From an uncultured SAR86 cluster bacterium (lineage in GTDB: Bacteria; Pseudomonadota; Gammaproteobacteria; Magnimaribacterales; AG-339-G14), in the NCBI GenBank assembly GCA_902514645.1, contig CABXRO010000011.1, positions 1-38,000 of the forward strand: a DNA stretch of 38,000 bases. The letters are read 5' to 3'. This document shows, one piece after another, positions 21,733-24,733 of the stretch. The first letter of the stretch is position 1. Each line of letters begins with the position of its first letter. The translations under genes and the position numbers were made by a program. The notes beneath the pieces are model-generated. The model did no database searches. It saw nothing but the letters and a program-made list of their open reading frames with translations, and was not told the origin of the DNA.

Positions 21733-22710
21733 ATGGATTTAGATGCTTTAAAGGCAGATCTTGAAAAAGATTTTCTAGAGATTAACTCTCAAGAAGTATT
21801 AAATATTCTCAAAGTTAAATACCTTGGAAAAAAAGGTCATATTTCCGAACTTTCAAAAAATATCAAAAATCTTTCCAAAAAAGATAGACCAGAATTTGGT
21901 AAGACAATTGGTGAACTTAGAAAACTCTGCGAAGAAAAAATATTTGCTGCACAAGAACAAATTGAAGTAAATTCAATCAATGAATCTCTTGAAAAAGAGC
22001 GAATTGATATCACTCTTCCGGGCTCCTATAAATCACAAGGAAAGCTTCACCCATTAACAGTTACGACTTTAAAAATAACAGACTTTTTTTCTGCTCAAGG
22101 CTATCTGATTGAAGATGGTCCGGAGATAGAGAGTGCTTATTACAATTTTGATGCGTTGAATATTCCTCTGGATCATCCTGCAAGAGATATGCATGATACT
22201 TTTTATCTCGATAACGGAGATTTATTAAGAACACATACCTCTCCAGTGCAAATTAGAGCAATCGAAAAGAGAGGGGCTCCTCTAAAAATTATCTGTCCTG
22301 GGAAAGTCTACCGAAGTGACGCAGATAAAACCCATACTCCTATGTTTCACCAAATTGAAGGTTTGGTAATAAGTGAAAATGTAAATTTTGGTCACCTCAA
22401 GAATGAAATCATGACTTTTATTGATTTTTTATTTGGTCCCGATACCAAAGTAAGATTTAGACCGTCCTATTTTCCTTTCACAGAGCCTTCAGCTGAAGTA
22501 GATATTATGGATAAAAAAACCAAACAATGGCTCGAAATCATGGGTTGTGGATTGGTGCATCCAAACGTCATTGACATGGCGGGACTGGATCCAAACCAAT
22601 TCTCTGGTTTTGCTTTTGGAATGGGGATTGAGAGGATGGCTAAACTTCTGTATGAGATAGAAGATATGCGTTCTTTATTTACAAACGACATAAAATTTTT
22701 ATCGCAATAA
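21733..22710 (+). CDS. pheS: Phenylalanyl-tRNA synthetase alpha subunit
   Basis: The catalytic subunit of the alpha2-beta2 PheRS, a class II synthetase. A coiled-coil N-terminus (about 1-85) precedes the core, where motif 2 is in LRTHTSPVQIRAIE and GKVYRSDADKTHTPMFHQIEG, and motif 3 in FGMGIERMAKLLYEI. Segment FRPSYFPFTEPSAEVDI forms the phenylalanine pocket. The length of 325 aa is normal. The start is ATG at 21733; the site GCATAATGAAGC upstream has no strong Shine-Dalgarno, suggesting coupling to rplT. pheT follows four bases after the stop. The paired beta subunit downstream is abnormal (see pheT). Confidence 0.97.
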   Translation: MDLDALKADLEKDFLEINSQEVLNILKVKYLGKKGHISELSKNIKNLSKKDRPEFGKTIGELRKLCEEKIFAAQEQIEVNSINESLEKERIDITLPGSYKSQGKLHPLTVTTLKITDFFSAQGYLIEDGPEIESAYYNFDALNIPLDHPARDMHDTFYLDNGDLLRTHTSPVQIRAIEKRGAPLKIICPGKVYRSDADKTHTPMFHQIEGLVISENVNFGHLKNEIMTFIDFLFGPDTKVRFRPSYFPFTEPSAEVDIMDKKTKQWLEIMGCGLVHPNVIDMAGLDPNQFSGFAFGMGIERMAKLLYEIEDMRSLFTNDIKFLSQ

Positions 22711-22714
22711 AAAA

Positions 22715-24733
22715 ATGAAAATTCTTTATTCAAGATTATTAGAGACTATAAATTCCAAACTCAAAATCGAAAATCTTTGTGACGACCTAACAATGATTGG
22801 CATAGAAGTCGACGGAATAGAATCGTTTCAAGGAGATAAAGTAATTGATTTCGATTTGACGCCAAATAGAGGAGATTGCTTTTCTGTAAGAGGTTTAGCA
22901 AGAGATTACTGCGCATTTAAAAACCAGAAATTTTCTACTTCTAGATCGGTTCCCTTTAAAGGAAGACATAAATTTGAAAAAAGTATTAGGCTATCTGCCG
23001 CTGATGCATGTTCTGCTTATTCTGCTATTTCGATCTCAAACCTAAAAATCAAGAAAAAATTCCCCGAAAACATCAAAAAAAGCCTTAACGCTTCGGGAAT
23101 CCAATCCATTCATCCCCTTGTTGATATTGTTAATTTTGTCATGTTGGAAAGTGGCCAACCCATGCATGTATTTGATCAAGATAAGATAAACGGAAATATT
23201 GAAGTACGATTTGCAAAGCCAAAAGAAACTATCAAAATTCTTGGCGAGAAAGAATTGAAGTTAACGTCTGATTGCTTAGTTATTGCAGATGAAAAAGAGC
23301 CCATTGCATTTGCAGGAATCTCAGGAGGCTTAAAACATTCGGTTTCAAAAAAAACCAAGAACTTTATTATTGAATCTGCCTTTTTTTCACCTTCTATCAT
23401 AAAGGGTAAAGCTAGAATGTATGGCTTCCAAACTGATGCCTCGCAAAGATTTGAGAGAGGAGTGGACTTTGAACTTCATGAAGAAGCTTTGAAAGATGTT
23501 ATTTCCATAATTCAGGATATTTTTGAATCAGATATTTCCAAAATTGAAACAAAGAAAAACAAATATTTTCCTAAGAAGAAAATAATAGGCATTTCTCTCA
23601 AAGACATTGAGCAGAAATTAGGTATGCCGATAAAAGAGACCACTCTCTTATCAATTTTAAAAAGACTAGAAATAAAACTTTTAAAAAAAACTAAATCTAC
23701 CTTCAACTTTGAAGTACCAAGTCACAGATTTGATTTATCAATTAAAGAAGACCTCATTGAGGAGATCGCCAGAATGATCGGTTATGATAATTTATCTCAA
23801 ATTAAATCTGATCCAGTTTCTCAAAATTATGAAACATCTGAATACAACTTCTTAAATGCAATAAAAGTTTTCATGAAGAATAAAGGTTTTCTTGAAGTCA
23901 TTAATTATTCTTTTTTGGATGCAAAAGTTTTAGAAAATTTAAATATCGTTGAAGAAAGTATTTCTCTGAAAAATCCTCTTAATAACTCATTGAGTACTCT
24001 CAGAACTTCATTACTTCCAAGTTTGGCTGAGAGTTTGGAATTCAACCTAAACAGAGAACAAAACTATTTAAAACTATTTGAAATTGGAAAAACATTTTCT
24101 AAGAAAAATCCTAAGGAATCTTTAAATTTAGCTGCATTGCTCTTTGACAGTGAAAAAATGAAGAATTGGAATTCTAGCCAAAATTTAGATTTTTATCATT
24201 TAAAAGGAATTATTGAGGATCTGGCTACAGAGTTCAGACTAAGCGATCTTTCTTGGAAAAAAACAACAAATGATTTACTTCACCCATATGCTTCAGCAGA
24301 TATTTTTCAAAAAAATAAAAAAATTGGATCTGTTGGCAGCCTTAATCCAAGATATCTTAAAACGATGGATCTGGCTAAGCCTTTTTACTATCTAGAATTG
24401 AAAATTGACTCTTTACATCGTAAAAATTTAGAGAAATTAGTATCTTCTTCTATCTATCCAACCTCGCAGAGAGATTTTTCCTTTGAAGTTGATAAAGATA
24501 TTTCTTACGAAGAGATAGAAAACTGCATTAGAAGTGCCTCAGAGTCTTATTTACAAAGCTTAAGAATATTTGACGTTTATGCTGGTAAAAATATTGCACA
24601 AGATAAAAAAAGTATTGCCTTCAGAATAACTTGGGGTTCAAATAAAAAGACTTTATCGGAAGATGATATAAATAATGAAACAAGTTTAATTATTTCCGGT
24701 CTGGAAAAAGAACTTAATGCTATTTTGAGATAA
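22715..24733 (+). CDS. pheT: Phenylalanyl-tRNA synthetase beta subunit lacking the tRNA-binding OB domain
   Basis: The beta subunit holds the editing site and tRNA contacts. The frame is continuous at 672 aa, whereas E. coli PheT is 795 aa. The first 35 residues match the family N-terminus (LTMIGIEVDGIESF), but the sequence then jumps to IDFDLTPNRGDCFSVRGLARD, which in E. coli lies after residue 150. The EMAP-II/OB tRNA-binding domain is therefore cleanly absent, with no stop or frameshift to blame. Retained are the B3/B4 editing region (PLVDIVNFVMLESGQPMHVFD), the B5 DNA-binding-like domain, the core-like module and the C-terminal FDX-ACB domain (about 580-672) starting YPTSQRDFSFEVD. It is directly followed by ihfA. 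Confidence 0.93.
   Translation: MKILYSRLLETINSKLKIENLCDDLTMIGIEVDGIESFQGDKVIDFDLTPNRGDCFSVRGLARDYCAFKNQKFSTSRSVPFKGRHKFEKSIRLSAADACSAYSAISISNLKIKKKFPENIKKSLNASGIQSIHPLVDIVNFVMLESGQPMHVFDQDKINGNIEVRFAKPKETIKILGEKELKLTSDCLVIADEKEPIAFAGISGGLKHSVSKKTKNFIIESAFFSPSIIKGKARMYGFQTDASQRFERGVDFELHEEALKDVISIIQDIFESDISKIETKKNKYFPKKKIIGISLKDIEQKLGMPIKETTLLSILKRLEIKLLKKTKSTFNFEVPSHRFDLSIKEDLIEEIARMIGYDNLSQIKSDPVSQNYETSEYNFLNAIKVFMKNKGFLEVINYSFLDAKVLENLNIVEESISLKNPLNNSLSTLRTSLLPSLAESLEFNLNREQNYLKLFEIGKTFSKKNPKESLNLAALLFDSEKMKNWNSSQNLDFYHLKGIIEDLATEFRLSDLSWKKTTNDLLHPYASADIFQKNKKIGSVGSLNPRYLKTMDLAKPFYYLELKIDSLHRKNLEKLVSSSIYPTSQRDFSFEVDKDISYEEIENCIRSASESYLQSLRIFDVYAGKNIAQDKKSIAFRITWGSNKKTLSEDDINNETSLIISGLEKELNAILR

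Follow-up and report, generated by a model that had tools for sequence, protein, structure and literature searches.

The canonical bacterial PheRS beta subunit, PheT, is 795 aa long and includes a B2 domain of about 112 residues. Archaeal and eukaryotic cytosolic beta subunits, of about 590 aa, have no EMAP-II insert in domain B1, and mitochondrial PheRS is a single chain of catalytic core and FDX-ACB domain, not a trimmed beta subunit. Here we describe a PheT of 672 aa that has no B2, encoded in the window, the 38,000-nucleotide stretch of SAR86 cluster DNA that was analysed. This protein is like PheT of E. coli, P. aeruginosa and T. thermophilus in B1, B3/B4, B5, B6/B7, B8 and the editing residues, and its gene stands in the same pheS-pheT-ihfA operon as in E. 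coli. Its structure model also matches the fold of archaeal and eukaryotic beta subunits (e.g., 3l4g_B), but unlike them it is of the bacterial type (TIGR00472, with a B8 FDX-ACB domain) and keeps the bacterial editing histidine. B2 is missing from many CPR PheT as well (PMC5370408); these are likewise naturally B2-less bacterial beta subunits, likened to ours by description and from a different phylum. The same paper cites Roy and Ibba (2006), whose title presents B2 as dispensable, yet contributing to editing. Since B2 had already been called dispensable and its absence is known in CPR bacteria, the picture of PheRS is unchanged. We regard the B2-less PheT as a well supported, mostly expected trimming of the enzyme; what is new is its instance in this order, and the recurrence in small genomes lends it modest interest. 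A literature search on SAR86 and pheT returned nothing relevant, and we found no report of a B2-less PheT for this order. CPR PheT and the archaeal and eukaryotic beta subunits are closer parallels than mitochondrial PheRS, to which a preliminary description of the sequence had compared it. That comparison holds for the reduced set of accessory parts but is a loose one, since the mitochondrial enzyme consists of one chain and lacks the beta module altogether.

The pheT gene starts with ATG and is a single unbroken frame; read from stop to stop it spans 679 aa, so no upstream extension is hidden. A complete pheS ends 4 bp 5′ of it. In a Pfam search, the protein matched B3_4, B5, the CLM domain and FDX-ACB, in that order. 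The B1 match (PF18262) is weak, with an E value of 0.08, and runs continuously across residues 7 to 70. The domain search for PF01588 (tRNA_bind) that had been proposed gave no match in PheT even at E ≤ 1. TIGR00472, the NCBI equivalog for bacterial PheT, scored 594.8 bits against a cut-off of 402.65, with only model positions 158 to 798 matched. Against E. coli PheT, the window protein aligns 38 of 39 residues at E. coli positions 1 to 39, 0 of 112 at positions 40 to 151, which are B2 (EMAP-II/OB), and 38 of 39 at positions 152 to 190; the match is kept over 152 to 795. The B1 halves are directly joined, without the PF01588 domain. The preliminary description, which had reported a 672-aa PheT without its N-terminal OB domain in an intact frame with all later domains present, is borne out by the open reading frame and the Pfam matches. 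The gap it saw at the junction is real, but the peptide was quoted in slightly abridged form and actually reads MIGIEVDGIESF-QGDKVID-FDLTPNRGDC. B2 is a typical, not an essential, feature of a bacterial PheRS beta subunit, and the window PheT carries the other sequence features of this class.

Coordinates of pheT, its domains and related genes (window positions unless another contig or locus is named)
Feature	Position	Strand	Basis
pheS, PheRS alpha subunit, N-terminal domain (PF02912) and catalytic core	21733..22710	+	Pfam
pheT, PheRS beta subunit, 672 aa, B2-less	22715..24733	+	ORF, Pfam, TIGR00472
Domain B1, first half, residues 1-38	22715..22828	+	Alignment to E. coli 1-39; AF2 strand 31-38
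Junction, site of B2 (112 residues in E. coli); predicted two-residue hairpin turn, residues 39-40	22829..22834	+	Alignment, AF2
Domain B1, second half, residues about 41-70, with VIDFDLTPNRGDC	22835..22924	+	Alignment, AF2
B3/B4 editing domain, catalytic-pocket residues conserved	23006..23524	+	PF03483
B5 domain	23591..23785	+	PF03484, residues 293-357
B6/B7 catalytic-like module	23813..24403	+	PF17759, residues 367-563
B8 ferredoxin-fold anticodon-binding domain	24449..24730	+	PF03147, residues 579-672
MetRS-type OB protein gene, 110 aa, GTG start, overlaps metG stop (GTGGATGA)	L001 1489-1821 = own genome C2:60413-60745	-	

The window comes from a 70%-complete draft assembly of 36 contigs, and one might suspect that assembly or sequencing had dropped B2 from this contig, or that the gene is decaying. 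Among relatives in the order, a search for the B3/B4 domain recovered PheT from 36 of 41 genomes. Intact frames, from four families (f1 to f4), measure 634 to 691 aa. All 34 alignable proteins, again from four families, have only 0 to 3 residues opposite E. coli's 112-residue B2, and single-contig genomes (G016, G028, G029 and G030) are among them. The remaining two are fragmented, one with its match at a contig edge (G027, 328 aa) and one with a stop inside (G002). Within the sampled part of the order, the loss of B2 is thus fixed. Full-length PheT in relatives, which had been named as the sign of an assembly deletion, is found in none of the order's members examined. This shared architecture argues against deletion or decay, as do the open frame, the conserved motifs and the intact pheS-pheT-ihfA order; the absence of B2 in the relatives rules out an artefact or a pseudogene, and we give that reading practically no credence. 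The clean domain loss from an unbroken gene that was first proposed is strongly supported by the order-wide absence, the conservation and the open frame.

Some PheT of the order show further peculiarities. Those of f3 and f4 (L028, L092-L096) are trimmed further, to about 634 to 645 aa. They have lost some 5 residues from the first B1 half (GHEHE junction), and in the tree they sit on a long stem branch. In G002, a genome of the window's genus, a TAA at C1:758803-759320 splits PheT into 140 and 215 aa, likely a frameshift or assembly error. The genomes are small (0.9 to 1.8 Mb), and 18 of 21 relatives have a rhodopsin-family gene that passes the cut-off; together these traits would fit SAR86-like marine Gammaproteobacteria.

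A missing B2 could also have moved to a separate gene and act in trans, a free OB protein serving PheRS besides or instead of MetRS. Indeed, the sole OB domain is encoded as a protein of its own (110 aa) in the window's genome and in f1, f2 and f4, and free OB proteins are general tRNA binders, Aquifex Trbp111 being one example. The 70%-complete assembly of this genome contains exactly one PF01588 domain, the C-terminal OB of MetRS. Near-complete genomes of the order likewise normally contain one: a match was obtained in 39 of 41 genomes, with two matches only in G316 and none in two f3 genomes. The OB protein has 45% identity to the C-terminus of E. coli MetG (E 2e-32), as opposed to an E value of 0.27 to PheT B2, and this MetRS type rules out a relocated B2. 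No PheT-type PF01588 protein was found elsewhere in the window's 70%-complete genome, nor in near-complete relatives. The gene position also speaks against an action in trans. In f1, f2 and f4 the gene, of about 110 aa, directly follows or overlaps metG; genomes of the window's genus have it overlapping the stop of metG at a GTGGATGA or ATGGATGA junction. In f3 the OB domain is fused to MetRS and PheT is nonetheless B2-less, so the free OB protein is not a displaced PheT domain. The separate and fused states are a lineage-specific gene fission or fusion. We consider it very improbable that B2 acts in trans. It is equally improbable that the free protein split from MetRS is a shared tRNA-binding cofactor of several synthetases, B2-less PheRS included; if true, this would be a minimal bacterial analogue of the eukaryotic Arc1p/AIMP1 systems.

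We conclude that, very probably, the PheRS encoded in the window is a working bacterial (alpha-beta)2 enzyme and that, in the course of genome reduction, an in-frame deletion removed B2 from its beta subunit before the order radiated. The B2 insert would normally occupy a loop between two B1 strands. Its removal, evident from the sequence, would leave these strands joined by a tight turn and the remaining fold intact. An AlphaFold2 model built with 39 sequences predicts just such a hairpin: B1 stays folded, and strands 31-38 and 41-48 are linked by a two-residue turn at the B2 site. The mean pLDDT is 86, and the pTM is 0.56, so the relative placement of domains is unreliable. The best PDB matches of the model are bacterial PheT chains. 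Aminoacylation should persist, since the alpha catalytic core, the N-terminal coiled coil, anticodon binding by B8 and editing by B3/B4 remain. Losing B2 would likely weaken auxiliary tRNA binding and, to some degree, the editing of Tyr-tRNA-Phe, judging from the title of Roy and Ibba (2006) and from general knowledge. The earlier proposal that PheRS would hold tRNA-Phe differently survives in weaker form, because the main contacts, the alpha coiled coil and beta B8, are kept and that title calls B2 dispensable.

The tRNA-Phe of this genome (L188:1501-1576) is E. coli-like, with G34-A35-A36, U20, G44, U45, U59, U60 and A73. At 27-43 and 28-42, however, it carries A-U pairs (A27-U43 and A28-U42); the G-C pairs that E. 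coli has at these places belong to the PheRS recognition set. Editing-pocket residues were defined in the Thermus enzyme (PMC3275996), and we transferred them to E. coli numbering by motif, as N254, H265, G315/G318 and E334. These five residues are retained in 46 to 47 of 47 B2-less PheT. With both the charging and the editing machinery kept, the missing part is an auxiliary tRNA-binding insert. Pocket position 253 is T in 30 of 35 B2-bearing PheT and V, L, S or T in B2-less ones; in the window PheT it is V139 (23129-23131). This variation could reflect relaxed or altered editing. Loss of B2 might belong to a trend in which streamlined lineages relax Phe/Tyr proofreading, comparable to what is reported for the editing-domain changes of Mycoplasma. 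Such a shift would fit the variable T253, the contribution of B2 to editing named in the title of Roy and Ibba (2006; cited in PMC5370408) and the PheRS editing-domain variants reported in Mollicutes (PMC4014445). However, the remaining editing residues and the whole of B3/B4 are conserved, so editing is evidently still under selection, and we think this shift rather unlikely.

We then considered PheT across the class, in a sample of 276 genomes; the open frame could be read for almost every PheT. Short PheT outside the window's order came from at least nine families (f18, f37, f38, f66, f71, f86, f92, f121 and f128), and their alignment showed the same segment missing; f155 has a partly eroded short PheT. 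With contig-edge fragments excluded, such B2-less PheT was found in 13 of 61 genomes of up to 2.0 Mb versus 0 of about 199 larger ones (Fisher p 2e-9, relatedness ignored). A small genome does not make the loss inevitable, since B2 persists in many reduced ones: f20 genomes, of 0.3 to 0.4 Mb, retain full-length frames of 784 to 812 aa. A phylum-wide sample of 140, weighted to large genomes, yielded no further clean short PheT. A domain of nearly all sampled proteobacterial PheRS is thus cleanly and repeatedly removable in small gammaproteobacterial genomes with the editing site kept. These lineages are natural deletion mutants for probing the role of B2, and they caution that a short PheT should not be taken as a broken gene.

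A maximum-likelihood PheT tree was built with the B2 columns removed, together with 200 bootstrap trees. The B2 trait requires at least four changes on this gene tree (five on an earlier quick tree), and a single origin appeared in 0 of 200 bootstrap trees. In f86, the B2-less PheT of G122 is a supported sister of the B2-bearing one of G230 (99/95). One origin for all B2-less PheT is therefore not favoured. Nearly all other proteobacteria in the samples have B2; the B2-less states are therefore losses, and the gene tree suggests that they probably recurred. Deep placement of the long-branch families f3, f4, f38 and f128 is unsure. The tree sets f3 and f4 apart from f1 and f2, probably a long-branch effect; the timing is most simply read as a loss that came before the order radiated. 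One candidate for a short PheT, L126 (labelled Pseudomonas sp. 286), was short by its tblastn range, yet its frame is 799 aa. The PheT of G187 (L089, f18) is B2-less and very divergent, with a branch of 2.8 in the quick tree and an aberrant KANRSFC motif; this genome also carries a second B3/B4-type protein fragment elsewhere.
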